IMG/VR virus record: IMGVR_UViG_3300024520_000228
Location: 1 to 37,158 of that record
Length of the DNA stretch: 37,158 nucleotides
Direction: 5' to 3' (one strand)
Source: a virus
Shown: positions 2,894-36,131 of the stretch, piece by piece
Layout of the letters: each line of letters begins with the position of its first letter
Position numbering within the stretch: position 1 is the stretch's first letter
Translations under genes and position numbers: made by a program
The notes under the pieces: model-generated
The model's database searches: none
What the model was told of the DNA's origin: nothing
The model's input: only the letters and a program-made list of their open reading frames with translations

Positions 2894-3010
2894 ATGAGCA
2901 CAAAGCAGAGCGCGGAGGAGTTCCTACAGGCAGAAGGCCAATTTGATCCGTACGCTAATACTATTTGCTGGTGCCATGCTCGCCTGGATGGGCGTACCTG
3001 CTCTGGCTGA
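2894..3010 (+). CDS. Hypothetical 38-aa protein, MSTKQ family member
   Basis: A tiny gene beginning MSTKQSAEEFL and ending with a Cys-rich stretch CWCHARLDGRTCSG that could bind metal. RBS AAAGGAG (2881-2887). Its first 29 bases match the first 29 bases of the 108-aa gene at 3972 at 27 positions, so the two share ancestry at least at their 5' ends. An in-frame ATG at 2849 exists but has no RBS and overlaps the inverted repeat. Function unknown. Confidence 0.55.
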   Translation: MSTKQSAEEFLQAEGQFDPYANTICWCHARLDGRTCSG

Positions 3011-3037: not shown

Positions 3038-3295
3038 ATGAGGAGCGAGGATACATCATTAAACTCTCAAATATACAGGATAACGGTTACAAGTCCGGGC
3101 GCATCAGCACAGCCTATTGAGGTCCTGGTGTACAGCAATTTCAGCGACACCGAGAAAGAGAGAGAGCAACGAGCGGAGATGCTCGACACAGCCAATGTCT
3201 CGGGGTGGATTTGGTTTGACGACACGGCGACCGTTGACAAGGTCCGTGAGGTAATAAGCGAGGCCATCCTCTCTTATTTGGAAGGGCTATCATGA
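3038..3295 (+). CDS. Hypothetical 85-aa protein
   Basis: No family recognised. The N-terminal half is probably beta-stranded (IYRITVTSPG, IEVLVYSNF). The C-terminal half is helical and acidic (TVDKVREVISEAILSYLEGL). It starts behind an extended Shine-Dalgarno AAAGGGGACA that recurs before several genes in the window. Its stop overlaps the next start as ATGA, which begins the run of ATGA-coupled genes that extends to 5,381. Confidence 0.65.
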   Translation: MRSEDTSLNSQIYRITVTSPGASAQPIEVLVYSNFSDTEKEREQRAEMLDTANVSGWIWFDDTATVDKVREVISEAILSYLEGLS

Positions 3296-3411
3296 GCATA
3301 GTTGCGGCTACAGTAATACAGTGGCTCGGATCTAACGTGGGAATGTCGTTTCTTGAGGAGTCGTTGGGTTCGTGTGGCTACAGAATAAAGGCAGAAGGGG
3401 GCGGGGGATGA
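3292..3411 (+). CDS. Hypothetical 39-aa protein ending in EGGGG
   Basis: A very short gene (MSIVAATVIQWLG start) that begins in an ATGA overlap. It ends with codons for KAEGGGG directly before TGA, and its last 24 bases form the first copy of the junction cassette described for 3388-4298. The N-terminal third is hydrophobic but too short to call a TM segment with confidence. It could be a degenerate remnant kept because its end supplies the ribosome-binding site of the next gene. Confidence 0.5.
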   Translation: MSIVAATVIQWLGSNVGMSFLEESLGSCGYRIKAEGGGG

Positions 3412-3569
3412 GTCCACAACACGCACGAAGTATAGCGGAGGCGTTGATGTCAGATTTAAATGGCCGCAGCGGTTTTGATTTGGATATTGACGATCAGGTT
3501 CGCAAGGAATGGCTTGGTGAATGGGTCGTTATTATCATGTCCACCAAGCCAGAAGGGGGCGAGGAATGA
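3408..3569 (+). CDS. Hypothetical 53-aa protein ending in PEGGEE
   Basis: Starts MSPQHARSIAEALM at the ATGA overlap behind the GAAGGGGGCGGGGG ribosome-binding site. It is acidic (DLDIDDQ) with a hydrophobic WLGEWVVIIM stretch before the shared tail. I recognise no family. An in-frame ATG further upstream (3372) lies inside the previous gene and has no ribosome-binding site. Confidence 0.55.
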   Translation: MSPQHARSIAEALMSDLNGRSGFDLDIDDQVRKEWLGEWVVIIMSTKPEGGEE

Positions 3570-3721
3570 AGGGCCGCAAGAAACTGACCATACTGAGTAC
3601 GGCGGAACTGTGGGCGTTGATCGTTGTTCCGCCTCGACTGAGCAAGCGCAACCGGCAGATCCGGAAGGACGCGAAAATATACTGCCAGTTACTAGCCAAG
3701 GCCGAAGGGAGCGAGGGATGA
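3566..3721 (+). CDS. Hypothetical 51-aa basic protein ending in AEGSEG
   Basis: Strongly basic (MKGRKKLTIL; PPRLSKRNRQIRKDAK), which fits nucleic-acid contact, and ends in the shared junction tail. ATGA start overlap. The 5' end TILSTAELWALIVV may form one amphipathic helix. No family recognised. Confidence 0.55.
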   Translation: MKGRKKLTILSTAELWALIVVPPRLSKRNRQIRKDAKIYCQLLAKAEGSEG

Positions 3722-3975
3722 GTGACAAAACAGCAGATGATTGGATGCGACATCACCGACAATGGAATGATATGTGTTACATGATCCACGCCAGTCAAAC
3801 TGATGTCGAAAACTACGGCGACAGGCGAGTCGCAGAAGCAGAGCAACACCCGCGCCATGTGGGCACAAAGCACACTCACGAGGCCGACCATAGCGATCCG
3901 TTGTTCCGGCGCTGCCTGCGTTGCGGCAAGGACTTGCTCGACGATGCCCATATGCCAGAAGGAGGCGAGGGATGA
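3718..3975 (+). CDS. Hypothetical 85-aa His/Cys-containing protein ending in PEGGEG
   Basis: Starts MSDKTADDWMRHH at an ATGA overlap. It is rich in His (HPRHVGTKHTHEADH) and has a CLRCGK knuckle near the C-terminus, so a zinc site built from His and Cys is plausible. The segment ENYGDRRVAEAEQ aligns with ETYGDMRAQEER in the next gene, and the underlying 22 bases (3808-3829 versus 4068-4089) match at 20 positions. The two genes are probably diverged duplicates. Function unknown. Confidence 0.6.
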   Translation: MSDKTADDWMRHHRQWNDMCYMIHASQTDVENYGDRRVAEAEQHPRHVGTKHTHEADHSDPLFRRCLRCGKDLLDDAHMPEGGEG

Positions 3976-4298
3976 GCACAAAGCAGGGCGCGGAAGAGTG
4001 GTTGAATGGGCGGGTTGGAGCATCTTGGCGTTACGAGGGAGGTGGCGTCGTAACCCGTGGCGACGCTGAAACCTACGGCGACATGCGAGCGCAGGAGGAG
4101 CGGGAGCGGATACGGAAGGTGGTGATGCCAGCCGCCAGGGACATCGAAGAATGGGTGCAGTTGGCAATAGCGAACCGGGGGCGAAGCAGCGATCCTAGCC
4201 ACGATCCCGCCTGTGCAACTGAGTGCGAAATTGAAAGATCCCGCCGCATTGTGCGAGATGTAACGCTAGCTACCAAGGCAGAAGGGGGCGAGGGATGA
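3972..4298 (+). CDS. Hypothetical 108-aa protein, paralogue of neighbours
   Basis: Starts MSTKQGAEEWLNGR, matching the start of the 38-aa gene at 2894 (27 of 29 bases), and carries the YGD segment shared with the preceding gene. It therefore looks like a mosaic of two neighbours, or their common template. The middle is helical and charged (RAQEERERIRKVVMPAARDI); the C-terminal third has two Cys (ACATEC). It ends in the shared KAEGGEG tail and is ATGA-coupled on both sides. Function unknown. Confidence 0.65.
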   Translation: MSTKQGAEEWLNGRVGASWRYEGGGVVTRGDAETYGDMRAQEERERIRKVVMPAARDIEEWVQLAIANRGRSSDPSHDPACATECEIERSRRIVRDVTLATKAEGGEG

Positions 4299-4513
4299 TC
4301 GACACTGGAGTATTAAATGAGCGCGTCCTGGCGATAGCCAGGGGGCATGGAGCCCGGAACCGGGGCGCAGGGCTGCCGGAATGGGATGTCAAGCAGGGGA
4401 CGCTCGACTGGCTGACCCGCTACGCCGTGCAGGAGTTCCAGGCAGAGGCCCTGCGCGGCTGGAGGGAGGCCAACGAACGAATCAATCTCGAGGAATCAAG
4501 GGGGACACAATGA
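4295..4513 (+). CDS. Hypothetical 72-aa protein upstream of nuclease
   Basis: The last member of the ATGA-coupled string before the nuclease and the first not to end in the EGGEG tail; it ends NLEESRGTQ. The body contains RGHGARNRGAGLPEWDVKQG and a helix LTRYAVQEFQAEALRGW. Its stop overlaps the nuclease start (ATGA), behind AAGGGGGACACA. No family recognised. The coupling suggests co-production with the nuclease. Confidence 0.65.
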   Translation: MIDTGVLNERVLAIARGHGARNRGAGLPEWDVKQGTLDWLTRYAVQEFQAEALRGWREANERINLEESRGTQ

Positions 4514-5229
4514 GCAAAAGAGAACGAAAGCATTATTCGATATCGCCGTCGAGCCTGGCCTTCCTTTACGAAGAATGCCCGGCCTGCTGGCGACGGGGAG
4601 TAGTGGGTCATCCACTGGCTCGCCCATTCAGCCCGTTTCCCTCGATCTTTGGCCGTATCGACAAGGGTATCAAACAACACTTCGTCGGTCGTCCGGGAGG
4701 TGAGATTGCGCCCGCTCTGGCCGACGGTACCGTCGTCCCCATCAAGGAGCAGACCCTACAGTCCGCCCCGGTCGGCGAATATCGCGGCCTGCCCATTGTT
4801 ATACGCGGGAAGCTCGACTCCCTGATAGAAGGCGCCGGCGGGGATTTCGCGATAGTGGATTACAAAACCAGCAATCCCAGGGAAGACCTCATCGGTCGCT
4901 ACGCCCGGCAGCTCCACTGCTACCAGTACATCCTGGAGAACCCGGGACCAACACACACTCACCGTGTCGTCGAACGCCTGGGTTTGTTCTGCTTCGAGCC
5001 GTATGAAACAGCCAGCTTTACCGTAGCGCGTGGCGACTTCGCCAACTTCGGCGGCACCATGACCTACCACTCCATCGAGCCGGACCGCGACACGTTCACC
5101 TACGAGACACTGCCCGAGATCGTGGCTACCCTGACCGGCGACCCGAAACCGGGCGCCAAGTGCGGCTACTGCGAGCGCGAGCAAACCATGATCGAATACT
5201 TGAAGCAGGGGCTGGACAACTTCTCATGA
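4510..5229 (+). CDS. Cas4/RecB-like PD-(D/E)XK nuclease
   Basis: A 239-aa member of the PD-(D/E)XK nuclease superfamily. Visible catalytic pattern: GKLD (Asp103), then VDYK (Asp117, Lys119), then a QLHCYQYIL helix (134-142) typical of RecB/Cas4-like folds. Cys23 and Cys26 (CPAC) near the N-terminus and Cys218 and Cys221 (CGYC) near the C-terminus could hold an Fe-S cluster or zinc, as in Cas4/AddB-type enzymes, though those usually have one N-terminal and three C-terminal Cys. The expected activity is a DNA exonuclease used in recombination or end processing. The start is the ATGA overlap at 4510; a longer in-frame reading from 4381 has no ribosome-binding site. With the upstream SSB-like gene it forms a probable recombination module. 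Confidence 0.8.
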   Translation: MSKRERKHYSISPSSLAFLYEECPACWRRGVVGHPLARPFSPFPSIFGRIDKGIKQHFVGRPGGEIAPALADGTVVPIKEQTLQSAPVGEYRGLPIVIRGKLDSLIEGAGGDFAIVDYKTSNPREDLIGRYARQLHCYQYILENPGPTHTHRVVERLGLFCFEPYETASFTVARGDFANFGGTMTYHSIEPDRDTFTYETLPEIVATLTGDPKPGAKCGYCEREQTMIEYLKQGLDNFS

Positions 5230-5381
5230 CCCCCAGCCAACAGACCGCCGCCGATATTCTGGCCTTGCCCGAGTCGGTGTTAGGGGTTTATACTACCCCC
5301 GAAATTGCGGCAAAGCTGCTGATTTGGGCTAGAAATAACGTGTCCGATGAGACTGTCCAGAATTTCATGACGGTAGTGTAA
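5226..5381 (+). CDS. Hypothetical 51-aa protein coupled to nuclease
   Basis: Starts MTPSQQTAADILALPESVLG in an ATGA overlap with the nuclease stop. It has two predicted helices (QTAADILALP; PEIAAKLLIWARNNV) and no TM segment, Cys or catalytic-looking motif. Direct coupling hints at a partner or modulator of the nuclease; that is inference. Confidence 0.6.
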   Translation: MTPSQQTAADILALPESVLGVYTTPEIAAKLLIWARNNVSDETVQNFMTVV

Positions 5382-5404
5382 GAAACTGGACTACACGGAG
5401 AGCG

Positions 5405-5821
5405 ATGGCTATGTCGGTGCAGCTCACGAACTCCTTTAAAATTGGGGTGACAATGCGTATGGTGGGCCTGTGGATACGGAACCTGGCCCGCCAGCGCATC
5501 ACCATGAACGTCACAATTCTATCTCTGCTGGTTAGTTCGTTTCTGGGAGTGAGTGGGTACGTGGCATGGCAGACAATGGACAACGCCAAGACCGCCGCCG
5601 CCACCGAGATCCACATGCAGCATGTCCAGACCAACCTGGAGCAGCTCGTTACCAGCGTGGCGAATATCCAGTTGCGGCTGGCCGAGGTGACTCACCTGCC
5701 GCAGCAGGTCGCCGCCTTGTCGGATCGGGTAGATGCACGGGCCAACCGCATCGACGGCTGGCGCAACGTGCAGACTATCAAGCTCGAGAAGATGGCGGAA
5801 CGACTAGAAAGGGGACAATGA
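5405..5821 (+). CDS. Membrane-anchored coiled-coil protein (spanin-like candidate)
   Basis: A 138-aa protein with a basic N-terminus, one TM segment (about residues 34-56) and a long charged coiled coil (about 60-138). This topology, cytoplasmic N-terminus and extended outer domain, is that of inner-membrane spanins and of some tail-assembly or holin partners. Without a recognisable endolysin nearby the lysis assignment is only a candidate. GGAG lies close to the first ATG (5405). In-frame ATGs at 5411 and at 5453 (behind GGGGTGA) are alternatives. It is the last plus-strand gene. Its stop overlaps an ATG that opens only a three-codon frame before the convergent minus-strand operon. Confidence 0.6.
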   Translation: MAMSVQLTNSFKIGVTMRMVGLWIRNLARQRITMNVTILSLLVSSFLGVSGYVAWQTMDNAKTAAATEIHMQHVQTNLEQLVTSVANIQLRLAEVTHLPQQVAALSDRVDARANRIDGWRNVQTIKLEKMAERLERGQ

Positions 5822-5850
5822 CCTTATGACTCTCTCACAAAACCGAATGC

Positions 5851-8382
5851 TTAGTCGGCCTCCGCCATCTCGGGCAGCCGCTCCGGTGTCAGCTCGCCCG
5901 GCTCCCAGTAGAACTCGCGACCAGTCTCGCGCCGCATCTTCGTAGCCATCCGCCTGAAGCTGGAGTTGGCCTTTGGGTCCGCAACCTTCTGCAACTGGTC
6001 CCAGAACAGCCGCTGTAGTGCGAGCCTCGTGTACCACATGTTAGTCCCAGGCGTGTACCGCTTGGCGAACCGCACCGCTTCCTTCGAGAACTCTGGCACC
6101 TCGCCCTCAAGGGCATCACCGCCCATGCGATACAGCGCCCCCGCCACGTCCGATCCCAGCGACCAAACCGGCCCTAGCAATGTCTCAAGTGGCCCCTTGC
6201 CGTAGCGAGACTCGCCGGACGTTAGCAGGTCCGCCCAGATGCCCGCACCACCACCGCGCAGAAACCCGGACATCCACGTCTTGCCAGCGAACGGATCCTT
6301 GATGTCGCGACCGTTCGCCACGTCGTAGGCCATCTCACTGATTACGCCCATTGTCGTCAGGCCCACCGCATGGGCCATCAGGTAACGCGTTCTGTTGAAC
6401 TTCCCGCCGCTGTACGTCTCATGATACAGCCCGCGCATTAGCTGGTTCTGCACCATCGACAGGCTGAAGGATTTGTATGCGAAGAACGCCCGCGACAACT
6501 CGCCAACCCCCGTACCCCTCGCACTGCCCGCGCCGGTCACTACCGCTCTGACTCCAGCCTCCGGCTCGACAACACCGCGGGTCATCTCGCTGATGATCAT
6601 CTCTTGATAGCGATTCGCGGCGTCCTGCTGGAATGACAACTCGGCTTGCAGCTTCGTAACCTTGGACCGTGCCGCCGCCAGTCTGCGCCCCAGTGCCGCC
6701 GGCCTGCTACCCCGGAGACCGGCCTCCGCTTCTTGGGCCTCCCCGGCCTCCTTGAGCGCCTTTGCCATTGCCTCGGTAATGCCGCCCGCCCGGTGCATCA
6801 CCTGTGTCGGTGCCAGGATCGGGACGCCGTTTATCTCATCGGGGGCCGCTGCCCGTATCACGTCCCAGTGGGCAGGAGTGATGCCGTTACGCCGTAACAG
6901 GTTTTTGTTAGCCGTCGTCAAACTGTCGAACTTCCTGCCCGTCAGCGAACCGAAGTGCGTCACCATCGACATGCCAATATGGCGCTTGTGGCCCTCGGTC
7001 CACGCTTCCAGCCCCGACGCCCGGATCAGTGTTTGAAACACCGTGCCGATCCTGCTGGTACCCGACATCTCGCCCCACCGGAGCGCCGCCTGCGTTCCCT
7101 GGATCGAGGCGTCCATACCCAGTGCGATCCTACCCGCCGCCATCCGGTCCGCCTTCGACTTCGTAAACCGCTTCAAATGCTCGAACGCGTATCGGTACGC
7201 CGGGATTCCCTGCGCGGTAAGGGTCATTCTTGTGGTCCAAGGGTCGCCCATGCTCGACAGCAACGCCGAGTTCAACTGTGCCGAACCCAGCCACATGCGG
7301 GCGCCCGTACTCAGGTTGTCGAGAAACTCGTTGGCCGACTGATTCACCCGCGACGTTACCACGTTGTAGGCAGCCTCCGGAGTTGCGATGATCTCCTTCG
7401 CCCTCGCCAGTGGTCCGGTAGCGCCCGCCTGGAGCGCCCGGTTATTGAGCGCCTGAAACACCTGGTCGGGCTTGGGGCCGAGGATTTCCATTACGCCGGT
7501 GCGCCGGCTCAAGTCTTCCAGATCGCCAATCACCGAACCGTAAATGTCGGGATCGCCGAACTCGTTGTTGGCCTCGAACCAGGCTTGCGCATTCTCGAAC
7601 GTCAGGCGACGGTGCTGCGAGATCCTCTTCATTCCCCGCGGGATGTCCTTCACCTTGACCGCCGCATCCGCCACGAACTCACCGTGCAGAGCTTCGACAA
7701 ACTCGCGCACCTCGGTACTGTTCAGCACCCGCGAGCCGTCCTCGCTGTAGATGCCGCCCCGCTTGAGCTTCGGCAGAATGAAGTCCCGCCACTGCTCCAT
7801 CGGCACCTTGGCGATTCTGCGCGGGTCCCAGTGCAATGTGAGCCCATAGTCCTTCCGCTTGGCTATGTTGCCCCCAGCGGCATTGTGGCGCATCCTGATG
7901 GTCTCTTGAGCGTCTGCCACCTGCCGGGCGTACCGCTGTATGGCCGCATCCTCGACCGGCTCATTGAACAGAGCGCGCACGAGCTTCCGCGACTCATCGA
8001 CCTGTGGGCTCAAACCCAGCTTCTTGGCCTTCAAGGCCTCTGCCGCCTCCGCCATGTGCGACATCGTGTCGGCAAACACCGCACGAGCGCGGAAGTCCGC
8101 ATTCGAGAATTCCGCCCAGCCCTTGGGATCACGGCGCAGTAGGGCCATTACCCCATCCCAGTCACCGCCACGGTATGCATCGACATCGGCCATGCGGTTT
8201 TTCATCGCCAGCGTGTGCAGTGCGGTTGTCCGCCGTTGCTCCATCGCCGACTTGATCAGCGAGTCTACCGCGATAGTTTCCGATGCTCCTGCCGCGATGC
8301 GATCCTCCAGCGCCTTGGCCTGCCGCTGGGTGATCACGCCCGTCCGCAAGGCTTTTTTTAGGCACTCAGCAAGCGACCGCAT
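5851..8382 (-). CDS. Large internal virion protein (gp16-like position)
   Basis: An 843-aa protein from the start MRSLAECLKKAL at 8382, chosen because GAAGGAG lies seven bases upstream; a longer in-frame start at 8463 is not supported. It is the last gene of the late operon, where T7-morphology phages encode the largest internal core protein that is ejected with the DNA. The N-terminal half is helical and charged. The C-terminal half has Gly- and hydrophobic-rich stretches (LMAHAVGLTTMGVISEMAY; GFLRGGGAGIWADLL) suited to membrane insertion. I see no lytic transglycosylase or lysozyme motif, unlike T7 gp16. It ends 29 bases from the convergent plus-strand operon. Confidence 0.7.
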   Translation of the reverse strand: MRSLAECLKKALRTGVITQRQAKALEDRIAAGASETIAVDSLIKSAMEQRRTTALHTLAMKNRMADVDAYRGGDWDGVMALLRRDPKGWAEFSNADFRARAVFADTMSHMAEAAEALKAKKLGLSPQVDESRKLVRALFNEPVEDAAIQRYARQVADAQETIRMRHNAAGGNIAKRKDYGLTLHWDPRRIAKVPMEQWRDFILPKLKRGGIYSEDGSRVLNSTEVREFVEALHGEFVADAAVKVKDIPRGMKRISQHRRLTFENAQAWFEANNEFGDPDIYGSVIGDLEDLSRRTGVMEILGPKPDQVFQALNNRALQAGATGPLARAKEIIATPEAAYNVVTSRVNQSANEFLDNLSTGARMWLGSAQLNSALLSSMGDPWTTRMTLTAQGIPAYRYAFEHLKRFTKSKADRMAAGRIALGMDASIQGTQAALRWGEMSGTSRIGTVFQTLIRASGLEAWTEGHKRHIGMSMVTHFGSLTGRKFDSLTTANKNLLRRNGITPAHWDVIRAAAPDEINGVPILAPTQVMHRAGGITEAMAKALKEAGEAQEAEAGLRGSRPAALGRRLAAARSKVTKLQAELSFQQDAANRYQEMIISEMTRGVVEPEAGVRAVVTGAGSARGTGVGELSRAFFAYKSFSLSMVQNQLMRGLYHETYSGGKFNRTRYLMAHAVGLTTMGVISEMAYDVANGRDIKDPFAGKTWMSGFLRGGGAGIWADLLTSGESRYGKGPLETLLGPVWSLGSDVAGALYRMGGDALEGEVPEFSKEAVRFAKRYTPGTNMWYTRLALQRLFWDQLQKVADPKANSSFRRMATKMRRETGREFYWEPGELTPERLPEMAEAD

Positions 8383-30420: not shown

Positions 30421-31020
30421 CTACTCGCAGATCGCCTGCCTTGCCAATTCCTTCTGATCGTCCTCTAGTTTGCTGTAGGCGTTAAACACCTTCTGCCAGG
30501 GCTGGAGGCGCTTGTCCTTTACAATCCCCGCTTCCCTGGCTGCCGCCTGCATGGAGGGGTAGTCCTCCAGCTTCTCGAAGACCTCCGGTGCATCCCGCAT
30601 GATTCGAGCAGCCAGATAGTTGAGATCATCCCCCTGTAAAACCATTATATTTTCTATTTTATTATGGTTTTTTTCCTTACTTGGCCTTCCTTGTGATCGC
30701 CTCTCCGGTGCCTTCGCCTTCGCTTCCGCCAGCGAGAGTTGCTCACCTTCTGGCCTATCGGCGAATCTCTCTTCCGCCTCAATCAGCCATTGTACTTTAT
30801 CGGGATTGACTCCCATCCCGTCCCAACAACACGCCTCCCAGGATACAAAGCCAGCCTTGCTCCATCCTTGGTCTACCTGCAACATATGACACGCCTTCAC
30901 GAATGGGCGGATATCCCGGTCTAGGAACTCATGGGAGCGCATCGCATGAACAACGATCTGTTGCCACCACTGCGGCGTCCCCTCCCTCAATGCTGCCGGT
31001 TCTACGATAGTGGTAGCCAT
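30421..31020 (-). CDS. Conserved phage protein (GRPSKEK...YLAARIMRD type)
   Basis: A 199-aa protein. The C-terminal half QGRPSKEKNHNKI, then DDLNYLAARIMRDAPEVFEK and QAAAREAGIV matches a family found in phages and cyanobacterial genomes whose function is unknown. The N-terminal half is helical with several Trp and Cys (WEACCWDGMG). It overlaps the helicase gene end by 19 bases. An AT-rich patch at about 30640-30672 codes for the NHNKIENI segment. Confidence 0.6.
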   Translation of the reverse strand: MATTIVEPAALREGTPQWWQQIVVHAMRSHEFLDRDIRPFVKACHMLQVDQGWSKAGFVSWEACCWDGMGVNPDKVQWLIEAEERFADRPEGEQLSLAEAKAKAPERRSQGRPSKEKNHNKIENIMVLQGDDLNYLAARIMRDAPEVFEKLEDYPSMQAAAREAGIVKDKRLQPWQKVFNAYSKLEDDQKELARQAICE

Positions 31021-32825
31021 AGCGGTACCTCCTTCGTTTTCGCGATCCGGTTATTGAGTTCTTGCAGCCAATCATATTTTCTCTTGTAGTCGCCTGACAC
31101 CATGTTGTCGTGATTCAAGCGGCTATTCATCACCCACTTCCGGTTGACCGCCTTCTTGATATCCCCTGCCACCCCTGTATCACCCGACTTGAGTTTCTTC
31201 GCCTTAAAGATATTACTCACCAATGTTCGGGTCGCTATCTTCACCTCCCCTTGCCACATATCGAGCAGGCTACTCTCCGACATTTCTGTGTTAATCGTGC
31301 TTGCTGGTGGGGCTTCCGAATCCATCACACCAAGCGACTGCCTCACTATCTCGCCCACCCTACCTTCATCCACGTCTGGATAAAGCCCCTTGACTCCCTC
31401 AACTATGCTCTCAACCTTGGTTGTATCTCCCGGTGACACTCGCTCCGTCCTGTACCATTCAACATCGACAATATGAGAATCCGGCAACTCTATCATCGGT
31501 GCCTGCCCGTCATCGGTCTCTTGTTGCGGCTCGTAGTCCTTCAAATCCCGCTGCATCGCCGCCTCTAGCTCATCTATCACTCGCGCCACTGCCGTATCTC
31601 TGCCGGCGAACACATCACAATAACGCTGATTCTTATACTCGACCTTAGGTATCAGTCGCTGGCCACGACCGATTTGCTGCAATAGCTTGGTAGGGGCTTT
31701 AGTAAGATGCAAAAACGCCAATACCGACACGTTTGGATGATCGTACCCAATCCCCATCATGTCGATCACACAAACACACTCCAGCTCCCCCTTCCTGAAT
31801 CTCGCCTTGATCTCCTCGTTCTCAAAATCCGGACGATCCACGCCAACCCAGTCACTGAACCCATCGCCCGCAATCCGATTCAACTGCCGATTTACCGACT
31901 TTGCATGGTCGTTTGACATACAAAACACCATCATCCGATGACGCTTCGCCTCATCCCTGACAAATTGGTTTTTTTGCGCCAGTCTTGCAATTGCATGGGT
32001 CAGCAATGGCGCGGTGTATTTCTCGATATATCGAAGTCGCCGCTTCTGCTCAAACTTCTGAAAGTCCTCATCTACGTCTGGCCCGAGATCCCCCGCCGTC
32101 AACCGGGTAGGATCACTATCACCGTTGACCGTTACGTCAATGTAATAGTCTTCGATATGGCCCGTCGGTTGTCGAATCGCCTGCTCTTCTATCCCCTCAG
32201 TGATACCGACGTGGGTCCGCGTACTTCCCTTAGCCACCGTCTTGAGCCCATCACTTCGTATGGGGGTAGCTGTTGTAAACATCTGAAATGCAGCATTTAA
32301 TGCCCCGAGCCCACCCCACGACTTGCCCGCCGCTACCTTGTGCGACTCGTCATAGCCAACAAACCATCTGTGGTCGGGATGGACCCGTAACAGTGAATCC
32401 ACAAACTCGTTTGCCACCCCCTGTTGATAGGTTGCTATAAACACCTCGATCTGACCTTCCGTTACATACCGCAACTCACGTGTTTTCTTCGTTATTCGTA
32501 CACTGCCGCCAATGGTAACACCCCATTCTTTCGCAAACGGGATTACAACGCCATCGGTCTGTGTGCGGAGGTCGTCCGTAGGCACCAAAATCAACATCCG
32601 GTTACACAGCTTACGTTCACGCAAGACTACGTATCCACCAAGCAGGACCGAGGTCTTGCCGTATCCGGTCGGGAAGTTGATTTCGTGTTTTGTTTCGGTA
32701 GTCTCAGCGAGCGCGAGGAGCGCCCTTAATTGGCCGGGTCTGAATTTCGAGAGATTGTCTCCGAAGATTCCCATGAGGAACTCTTCCGAAGATTGCACGT
32801 CTTGCACAGTGCTCTTAGATTGCAT
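31002..32825 (-). CDS. SF2 DEAD/H-like helicase (ResIII type)
   Basis: A 607-aa superfamily 2 helicase. Motif I FPTGYGKTSVL (Lys57), motif II YDESH (159-162, a DESH variant), motif III TATP (185-188) and motif VI QQIGRGQR (383-390). The C-terminal ~170 residues are not helicase core and have no recognised domain. It may act at the phage origin or in recombination. The first 100 bases overlap the HNH gene in another frame. A later in-frame Met18 would still overlap. Confidence 0.85.
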   Translation of the reverse strand: MQSKSTVQDVQSSEEFLMGIFGDNLSKFRPGQLRALLALAETTETKHEINFPTGYGKTSVLLGGYVVLRERKLCNRMLILVPTDDLRTQTDGVVIPFAKEWGVTIGGSVRITKKTRELRYVTEGQIEVFIATYQQGVANEFVDSLLRVHPDHRWFVGYDESHKVAAGKSWGGLGALNAAFQMFTTATPIRSDGLKTVAKGSTRTHVGITEGIEEQAIRQPTGHIEDYYIDVTVNGDSDPTRLTAGDLGPDVDEDFQKFEQKRRLRYIEKYTAPLLTHAIARLAQKNQFVRDEAKRHRMMVFCMSNDHAKSVNRQLNRIAGDGFSDWVGVDRPDFENEEIKARFRKGELECVCVIDMMGIGYDHPNVSVLAFLHLTKAPTKLLQQIGRGQRLIPKVEYKNQRYCDVFAGRDTAVARVIDELEAAMQRDLKDYEPQQETDDGQAPMIELPDSHIVDVEWYRTERVSPGDTTKVESIVEGVKGLYPDVDEGRVGEIVRQSLGVMDSEAPPASTINTEMSESSLLDMWQGEVKIATRTLVSNIFKAKKLKSGDTGVAGDIKKAVNRKWVMNSRLNHDNMVSGDYKRKYDWLQELNNRIAKTKEVPLWLPLS

Positions 32826-33699: not shown

Positions 33700-33963
33700 T
33701 CACTCACCTCCCTGGGAACAGTTAGACCGTTCCCGTACCGCTGCATTATCTAACGAACAGGCCAGCCTTATCGCCACCGCTGCGACCTGTAGCGCCTCCT
33801 TGACGATGCCGTCCATGTCGTTGCGATGAATCGCCTCGATAAGTTCGGTGTATTCCTCGGTGAGTACGCCGAGCCCCTCATGCGTCGATTGAAAATCCCC
33901 GTACTTTATCGCAGCCGTCAGCCGCTCGCTGTCTATGATGTCCTGGTATTCGTCACATATCAT
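33700..33963 (-). CDS. MazG-like nucleotide pyrophosphohydrolase
   Basis: An 87-aa helical protein with VLTEEYTELIEAIHRNDMDG followed by VKEALQVAAVAIRLA, the pattern of the short MazG-like all-alpha NTP pyrophosphatases (first acidic helix EExxE, second E-x-x-Q in place of the usual E-x-x-D). It may remove nucleotides or alarmone-like signals. Its ATG overlaps the TGA of the helicase-methyltransferase gene (ATGA). Confidence 0.6.
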   Translation of the reverse strand: MICDEYQDIIDSERLTAAIKYGDFQSTHEGLGVLTEEYTELIEAIHRNDMDGIVKEALQVAAVAIRLACSLDNAAVRERSNCSQGGE

Positions 33964-36131
33964 TTGAACATATCCATCTGGTTTTCTGAGTCCACTTGAA
34001 CACCCAAGTTGCTAACAGCCTGGTCGAAATATGACCGTTTGAGCTCTATGCCTACGAACTTTCGTCCCCACTTGAGAGACTCCACCCCCTCGCTCGCTAT
34101 CCCGGCGAATGGCGACAACACCATATCCTCCGGAGCTGACCATAGCGCCAGACAACGCTTGATAACCTCGAGCTGAAGCGGACAAATATGCCGTTCGTCC
34201 TCAGACTCACGCGCGCTCATGTACTGGAGCGTGTCGCTTGGTTTGATATCTGTCCATATAGGCGACGCCCACCGTTGCCATAGCGACACTGGAAACACGT
34301 CCCCATCGTGGCTAATCGGCTTTGTGTTTTCGCCGGGTTTCCGAAATGTTACGACGTAATCCGGTATCCCCTGCCGACTCATCGCCGAATCCTTCCGGAT
34401 CTGCTTGTGTAGCAATCCCACCGCCTTGGTTCTCTGCATCGCCATCACCGGGTCTTTCCATATCACCACCTCGCTATGGTGAATGAACCCCACCGCCGCC
34501 ATTGCCCGGATGATATCGCCGCGGAAGTCCATCAGGCCGATAACTCCATCCCGCGCCTTGAGCGTCGGCAGCAACATGCAATGAACACTCACCAATCGCC
34601 CCGAACGAATGACCCGGAATAGCTGATTCGCCAAAAACCCGTAATGCTCCATGAACTGTTCATGATTCGTCGAGTTGCCCATGTCCGCCAGATGGTTAGA
34701 GTACGTGTATAACGAGGAGAACGGCGGCGAAAAGATAGCATAATCAACGCTCTCCGCATCCATTGTCTGCATCACCTTAACGCAGTCCCCGTTATGCATC
34801 GTCCACCCCGCCCCCTCTTTTTTCTCGTGCATCGTAGTCCCCATTGTCCTCGCCTTCTGGACTCGTTCCGCTATCGCGCCGAGCCTTGCCTGCATATCTT
34901 TGTGGTTCGCCTCTTTGCGGAGTACGTTTTTCAACGTGAATATGTCTTGATCCGTAGTCACGATATGTGCCGTGACGTCTTCTGTTTGCCCAAACCGCCA
35001 GCACCGACGAGTCGCCTGATATAACGCCTCGTAAGAGTCCGACAGCCCCACGAAAACCATGTTGTGGCAGTTCTGCCAGTTCATACCGAACCCTGCTATT
35101 TTGGGCTTTGTGACCAATACCCGAACCTTCCCATCCGCAAATCCCAGCATCGACTTCCGCTTGTGTTCGTCGCTATCCCCGCCCTTAACCTCGACCGCGC
35201 CTGGCACCGCCCGCGCCACCGCTGCCGATTCGTCATTGAGCTCACACCAGACTATCCATTGCCCAGGTTGCGATGCGAGGTCTATCGCTTTCGCGCACCG
35301 GTCCGCGATTGAACTCCGCTGTAGTTGCCGCTTTTCGTTCAGGTCCAGATTGCTGACCGGCAGCAACTGGCTCCCCTTGAACTCGGTACTCACTCGATTC
35401 GTTACATATCGCAGTTCTGGCAAATCAAACCCATCGTCGGAAAACCCCACTTGAGAGGGTCGTTGAATCATCACCGACCATGACAGTACCCAATTCCAAA
35501 ACTCATCGACCGCATGCCCCTTAATCCGCCAGTTCTGCGTCGAGCCACCATCGTGAACAAAGAACATCGAGAGCATTTCGGTTCGCGTCATGGCCCCGAC
35601 AAACTCCGCATGATTGCCCAACTCCATAAAATCGTTCGGCGATGGCGTAGCCGTACATGCCAGCTTGTATTTGTGCTGGGCCGTTGACTCGATAATCTTG
35701 GTACGGAATACGCCAGTGTAGGATTTGAGAATGGAACTCTCGTCGAGAACTATCCCGACGAACTCATCTAAATCGAAGTGGTCTATCTTCTCGTAGTTGG
35801 TTATGGAGACTTGGCTTCTGACATCGGCCTGCGTATCGACCTCACTGCAGTCGATTCCGAATCTCTGCGCCTCCCGAACGGTCTGGGCCCTTACTGCCAA
35901 CGGTGCGAATATCAGCACCGGACCAGGTATCCGCTCCGCCCACGATAATTGCATAAGCGTTTTTCCCAGACCGCAATCGGCAAAGATACAATACCGGCCA
36001 ACCTCAAGGGCTCGCTCCGTTATCGCTCGCTGGAATCCATATAGGTGAGGATTCAGGTCACCATGTGAAACACCCTCAGACTCGAACCTCAAAACCTTTG
36101 ACTCTAAAAACTGATCGTATTTTTCTGACAC
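33960..36131 (-). CDS. SF2 helicase fused to DNA methyltransferase
   Basis: A 723-aa fusion. Residues 1-430 are a SNF2-like helicase: GLGKT (54-58), VLDESS (128-133), TATPSPN (160-166) and QATRRCWRFGQ (372-382). Residues 440-715 are a beta-class DNA methyltransferase: SPPF (468-471, N4-cytosine or N6-adenine type motif IV) and, later, SPFAG (673-677, SAM-binding motif I), with GIELKRSYF. The chain ends QMDMFK; QMDMF (718-722) fits the beta-clamp-binding consensus. It starts at GTG behind AAGGGGG. It probably methylates newly copied phage DNA to evade restriction while remodelling proteins or strands; the target sequence cannot be read. Confidence 0.85.
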   Translation of the reverse strand: MSEKYDQFLESKVLRFESEGVSHGDLNPHLYGFQRAITERALEVGRYCIFADCGLGKTLMQLSWAERIPGPVLIFAPLAVRAQTVREAQRFGIDCSEVDTQADVRSQVSITNYEKIDHFDLDEFVGIVLDESSILKSYTGVFRTKIIESTAQHKYKLACTATPSPNDFMELGNHAEFVGAMTRTEMLSMFFVHDGGSTQNWRIKGHAVDEFWNWVLSWSVMIQRPSQVGFSDDGFDLPELRYVTNRVSTEFKGSQLLPVSNLDLNEKRQLQRSSIADRCAKAIDLASQPGQWIVWCELNDESAAVARAVPGAVEVKGGDSDEHKRKSMLGFADGKVRVLVTKPKIAGFGMNWQNCHNMVFVGLSDSYEALYQATRRCWRFGQTEDVTAHIVTTDQDIFTLKNVLRKEANHKDMQARLGAIAERVQKARTMGTTMHEKKEGAGWTMHNGDCVKVMQTMDAESVDYAIFSPPFSSLYTYSNHLADMGNSTNHEQFMEHYGFLANQLFRVIRSGRLVSVHCMLLPTLKARDGVIGLMDFRGDIIRAMAAVGFIHHSEVVIWKDPVMAMQRTKAVGLLHKQIRKDSAMSRQGIPDYVVTFRKPGENTKPISHDGDVFPVSLWQRWASPIWTDIKPSDTLQYMSARESEDERHICPLQLEVIKRCLALWSAPEDMVLSPFAGIASEGVESLKWGRKFVGIELKRSYFDQAVSNLGVQVDSENQMDMFK

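Follow-up and report, generated by a model that had tools for sequence, protein, structure and literature searches.

The window analysed here, a stretch of 37,158 nucleotides of DNA from an uncultured phage, contains a run of short, overlapping genes in which five consecutive members end in a near-identical sequence of 24 bases (Table 1). With up to three mismatches allowed, AAGGCAGAAGGGGGCGAGGGATGA occurs five times in the record, always within positions 3388-4298, the successive copies differing from it at 1, 2, 2, 3 and 0 bases. No copy lies outside that interval anywhere in the 37,158-base record, and dinucleotide-shuffled sequence contains none, so that zero copies are expected against the five observed. 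Every copy comprises the C-terminal codons of the upstream gene, a Shine-Dalgarno (SD) sequence, the stop codon TGA and the start codon of the next gene, stop and start overlapping as ATGA, and the same short sequence thus stands at five consecutive gene boundaries. The central observation of a preliminary description of this DNA, namely a single stop/ribosome-binding site (RBS)/start unit closing five neighbouring genes, is borne out.

The genes that carry the unit differ in length (39 to 108 amino acids) and mostly in sequence, again as first described. With the tail removed, genes 1-3 are unrelated or only marginally similar to the other array genes; genes 4 and 5 have a patch in common (DVENYGDRRVAEAE and DAETYGDMRAQEER, respectively; 34 bases in the DNA) and have similar N-termini. 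In addition, the first 28 bases of gene 5 are 93% identical to the start of an ORF at 2894, the identity beginning at the start codon. This ORF is possibly a relic, or decayed cassette, and duplication and patchwise exchange both seem to have played a part in the array. Convincing family matches were found neither for genes 4, 5 and 6 (Pfam and PHROGs) nor for gene 1 (Pfam) or gene 2 (PHROGs).

Table 1. Genes and joints of the array and its flanks (positions in the window; tail, C-terminal residues encoded by the joint)
Feature	Position	Strand	Remarks
38-aa ORF	2894..3010	+	Opens with 28 bases that match the start of gene 5; then AGGCAGAAGG, which resembles the start of the unit
Flanking gene	3038..3295	+	85 aa; ATGA joint to gene 1 without the unit (internal control)
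Array gene 1	3292..3411	+	39 aa; tail KAEGGGG; no match in Pfam scan
Joint copy 1, AAGGCAGAAGGGGGCGGGGGATGA	3388..3411	+	End of gene 1, SD, stop, start of gene 2; SD duplex -10.8 kcal/mol
Array gene 2	3408..3569	+	53 aa; tail KPEGGEE; no match in PHROG scan
Joint copy 2, AAGCCAGAAGGGGGCGAGGAATGA	3546..3569	+	SD duplex -10.8 kcal/mol
Array gene 3	3566..3721	+	51 aa; tail KAEGSEG
Joint copy 3, AAGGCCGAAGGGAGCGAGGGATGA	3698..3721	+	SD duplex -7.6 kcal/mol
Array gene 4	3718..3975	+	85 aa; tail MPEGGEG; E.YGD.R..E patch in common with gene 5
Joint copy 4, ATGCCAGAAGGAGGCGAGGGATGA	3952..3975	+	SD duplex -11.7 kcal/mol
Array gene 5	3972..4298	+	108 aa; tail KAEGGEG; contains EERERIRKVV
Joint copy 5, AAGGCAGAAGGGGGCGAGGGATGA	4275..4298	+	Identical to the consensus; SD duplex -10.8 kcal/mol
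Gene 6	4295..4513	+	72 aa; starts at the last joint, without the tail; own ATGA joint at 4510 with a different SD region
Flanking PD-(D/E)XK nuclease	4510..5229	+	Pfam PDDEXK_1, E 2.7e-9; phage exonuclease PHROGs

The preliminary description also stressed that the phase of the unit is identical in all copies. This is true at all five joints, but it adds no evidence of its own, since the phase follows from an ATGA overlap combined with normal SD spacing. The real signal is the near-identity of about 20 bases 5' of ATGA. The five joints agree on average at 17.0 of the 20 bases upstream of ATGA, whereas five strong-SD joints drawn each from a different locus agree at 6.6 +- 0.8 of 20, with a maximum of 10.7 in 20,000 draws; the pool for this null consisted of 495 ATGA or GTGA joints from 141 other loci with an SD duplex of -7.5 kcal/mol or better, unit-like joints being excluded. 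Even the best five unit-free joints within one locus reach at most 13.0 of 20 (39 other loci). Identity among the joints falls to background right after ATGA and has its 5' limit at about -20 to -24, so that the sequence conserved at the RBS, directly 5' of the starts, exceeds what an SD needs. The two ATGA joints that border the array, with starts at 3292 and 4510, show ordinary SD regions unlike the unit. Considering this difference and the lack of other copies in the record, the suggestion that the unit might simply be the genome-wide RBS consensus is rejected.

What, then, is conserved in the joints? All five combine the ATGA overlap with an intragenic SD at usable spacing, and their SD duplexes average -10.3 kcal/mol, against -8.0 for other forward genes and -6.9 for reverse-strand genes of the window, the latter two means being rough because the comparison starts were hand-picked from the ORF list. 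The claim that the five proteins carry the same EGGEG tail holds in the sense that all end in EG(G/S)(E/G)(G/E), but the exact tail varies (EGGGG, EGGEE, EGSEG, EGGEG and EGGEG in genes 1-5). Four differences occur among the copies in the core tract, all of them A/G exchanges, and three of the four alter the protein. Since purines are kept while the tail varies, it is the RNA or DNA, and not the peptide, that looks selected, a pattern consistent with selection on an RNA signal rich in purines. Within the purine-rich unit no palindrome or self-complementarity was found, and the joints fold no better than shuffled sequences (z from -0.7 to 1.4). An integron-type cassette array is rejected on these grounds, as there is no palindromic attC-like site and the joints fold like shuffles.

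Similar joints exist in other viruses. A scan of viral contigs with GAAGGRRGCGRGGRATGA returned 117 stretches, mostly with single copies and a few of them with arrays. One such case is a 60.5-kb record (L060) with eight joints, TCGAAGGGAGCGAGGAGTGA and variants, that agree at 18.2 of 20 bases and encode tails such as IIEGSEE and AIEGSEE; its array genes are mostly different from one another, with some partial paralogues that carry an ERxRIKKA motif. Runs of small genes that overlap at EGSEE or EGREE joints are found in L008, L022, L037, L075, L081, L117, L158, L188 and others. The arrays of L060, L008, L075, L158, L188 and L022 resemble that of the window in having GAAGGGAGCGAGGARTGA-type joints, EGSEE-like tails, small accessory genes and ATGA or GTGA overlaps; they differ in belonging to other, likewise uncultured viruses with other genes and another G+C content (0.59 in L060, 0.46 in L158 and L022), and, as these loci are a biased sample gathered by searching for the unit, the resemblance among units is partly a product of the search and not proof of common origin. 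The lower-G+C phages (L008, L022, L158 and the like) are presumably of a gut type, judging from a rumen genome (L149) that carries their genes. A scan of a genome collection for a similar unit gave 22 places, nearly all of them single chromosomal occurrences, with two copies only in L149. The host RBS consensus is rejected as the source of the gut-phage unit, which was present in just one of 383 genomes of the family of the L149 rumen bacterium; a protein search of the same 383 genomes gave 0 matches and was uninformative.

Two further features were seen in these loci. A second joint type, GGAGGTGCGGAATGA, with the tail DGGAE or EGGAE, is mixed with EGSEE joints in L015 (at 1710 and 3240) and L022, and L158, L188 and L168 contain the variants EGSET, EGSETE and EGSEK of the EGSEE joint, as if the end of the unit slips while the ATGA overlap is kept.

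In the gut-type phages, DNA identity switches at the unit. L158 and L188 are identical at 16 of 70 bases upstream, 24 of 24 within the unit and 112 of 116 downstream; for L022 and L037 the corresponding values are 16/70, 22/24 and 112/116, and the switch runs in the opposite direction between L037 and L081 (67/70, 24/24 and 32/116). Gene order is permuted as well: a gene beginning MNQKRCRSCQ is preceded by three different genes in three records, which were retrieved by the gene and not by the unit, and it stands before a gene beginning MSDTN in L075 and after a gene with the same C-terminus as MSDTN in L188.

Is such turnover more frequent at the unit than at other overlaps? The raw pairs gave a mixed picture: the downstream gene had been replaced in 54 of 67 cases at unit joints versus 60 of 166 elsewhere, and the upstream gene in 15 of 34 versus 64 of 163. 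A count per family, devised after the raw counts had been seen and meant to stop near-identical loci from counting repeatedly, gave a downstream neighbour replaced at least once in 13 of 15 families at unit joints versus 38 of 75 at other ATGA joints (one-sided Fisher p 0.009), and an upstream neighbour replaced at least once in 8 of 11 families versus 31 of 67 (p 0.10). The excess of neighbour replacement at unit joints is suggestive only, because these loci had themselves been found through the unit. At ATGA joints that lack it, turnover is frequent too, at about 45%. The earlier proposal that the joint is a recombination-friendly cassette boundary therefore stands in part: exchange does occur at similar units in other viruses, as the identity switches and permuted orders attest, but recombination-friendliness as such is suggested and not proven, given that unit-free ATGA joints turn over too.

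For the phage of the window itself, exchange at these joints is something that we infer. Portal proteins related to its own occur at about 50% identity in L123-L125 and at about 30% in Pelagibacter and other podophage records; two larger portal-related records lack the unit and have only structural genes in common with the window. Searches for relatives of the left arm, with the nuclease, the gene at 2179, array genes 4 and 5 and the array DNA as queries, found none in the collections searched, the single match at 38% identity and E 0.08 not being meaningful, and BLAST of single joints against cultured phages gave chance-level matches only.

We favor the view, at a probability of roughly 0.58, that the unit is a lineage-specific composite RBS joint that has been copied or exchanged together with small genes and is kept for translational coupling. 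The joint would combine the last codons of a small gene, a strong SD at normal spacing and the overlapping stop and start. Its five copies would descend from a single sequence and would have spread as small accessory genes were duplicated or acquired together with it, while recombination across the 20-24 shared bases would leave frame, stop, RBS and start intact. Coupled translation, whether by termination-reinitiation or by strong SD-driven initiation, may then select for the purine-rich core while the genes around it change. As part of the same explanation, the EGGEG-like tail would be a by-product of the joint. Since genes have been swapped at very similar joints in unrelated viruses, the unit is probably a plug-and-play connector for accessory genes. 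A broader proposal, which is possible but should be taken as tentative, is that some phage lineages keep a private adaptor of 20-24 bases (stop, RBS and start) that gives accessory genes standard ends and so allows whole small genes to be gained, dropped or reordered as interchangeable parts of a coupled operon; this phage and the virus with eight joints would be examples.

The alternative already raised in the preliminary description is that one gene was tandemly duplicated with its RBS, and that the coding part then diverged strongly while selection held the RBS, stop and start, with no exchange between genomes. Duplication probably did contribute, as the patch and similar N-termini of genes 4 and 5, the 28 bases shared by gene 5 and the ORF at 2894, and the partial paralogues in the eight-joint array of L060 all suggest. 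As a complete account, however, it is rather doubtful: genes 1, 2 and 3 do not convincingly resemble the others when the tail is left out, the genes encode anything from 39 to 108 amino acids, and in other viruses plainly unrelated genes stand in permuted order at similar joints. Conservation that reaches 5' beyond the SD core, as far as about -20 to -24, would also be expected if the unit were a lineage-specific start-associated control element, in which the block beyond the SD is bound by a phage or host factor or a small RNA, the genes are co-regulated at translation, and exchange is incidental. There is precedent in the start-associated sequences of Cluster K and EF phages, which have been suggested to act in translation (PMC3203893, PMC7302621). 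The conserved part of the unit, however, amounts to an ordinary purine-rich SD region that lacks a palindrome or RNA structure, no copies lie elsewhere in the genome, and no candidate factor is known, all of which makes such an element unlikely.

Two simpler ideas fare worse. If the tail served as a peptide tag, say in binding or degradation, the common ending of all five proteins would be accounted for; yet three of the four core-tract differences change that ending while all four keep purines, and gene 6 in the same run lacks it, so that we consider a tag very improbable. Least credible is the idea that the ATGA overlaps converged on a strong SD independently. The overlap and the SD spacing do fix phase and purine content, but convergent SDs alone are rejected by the null from the 495 strong-SD joints (17.0 of 20 bases against 6.6, and 10.7 at most in 20,000 draws), and the ATGA joints that border the array in the same operon look unlike the unit. 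The composite joint thus remains the preferred reading. It would explain why small proteins that are not related can have a common C-terminus and yet no common function, and such tails should not be taken for homology in annotation.

It is an old question how small accessory genes enter and leave phage genomes while the operons stay intact, and runs of identical composite joints, together with permuted gene order in some viruses, offer a concrete case that can be tested. The notion of short conserved sequences at the boundaries of exchangeable phage modules is not new (Susskind and Botstein 1978 and Clark et al. 2001, as cited in PMC3029335). In the open-access literature, the closest single event is that in mycobacteriophage Island3, where an inserted gene (68) shares its last 18 residues, and the corresponding DNA, with the upstream gene 67, which was read as recombination between sequences of about 50 bp (PMC3029335). 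Relaxed recombination by phage recombinases is also established (PMC3945230). Like the boundary sequences, the window's joint is a short sequence at gene boundaries and a proposed place of recombination that keeps genes intact; it differs in that five consecutive copies stand in a single genome and that each is itself the stop, SD and start, and exchange is seen in other viruses with a similar unit. Judged against the open-access literature, the joint is best read as a variant of these known boundary sequences.

The closest repeated RBS elements in that literature are the start-associated sequences (SAS/ESAS) of Cluster K mycobacteriophages and Cluster EF Microbacterium phages, which are conserved at the RBS position, in one orientation, before non-structural genes of different families (PMC3203893, PMC7302621). 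The SAS consensus is GGGATAGGAGCCC in Cluster K and GGGAAAGGACCCC in Cluster EF, and the elements lie mostly in intergenic gaps, of more than 50 bp in Cluster K (PMC3203893, PMC7302621). The window's unit likewise occupies the RBS position, is conserved beyond what an RBS needs and is repeated in one orientation. SAS, however, is another sequence, of 13 bp, scattered over half a genome 5' of genes, whereas the unit does not match the SAS consensus and lies inside the coding end of the upstream gene, at consecutive joints with 4-base overlaps. Termination-reinitiation at overlapping gene pairs, finally, has been shown for 13 of 14 tested pairs of cellular genes (PMC6728339). Those pairs have the same stop/start overlap, and their intragenic SD likewise limits how the upstream protein can end. 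We know of no termination-reinitiation pairs in which a single near-identical joint is common to a run of genes.

Several minor observations were made along the way. An ERxRI(R/K)K-like motif occurs both in small proteins of the L060 array (reverse strand, about 4100-6500) and in gene 5 of the window. Elsewhere in the record, the ORF at 693-1421 contains a 12-base tandem repeat (1043-1426) that encodes an alanine-rich stretch of AARDAA/AAWEAA type, and its Pfam match to Imm5_like (E 3e-11) overlaps the repeat and may therefore be compositional. At 33960-36131 lies a gene for a 723-amino acid protein with an SNF2/helicase-like part and an N6/N4 DNA methylase part (Pfam E 5e-10), adjoined by a DEAD/ResIII helicase gene at 31002-32825.
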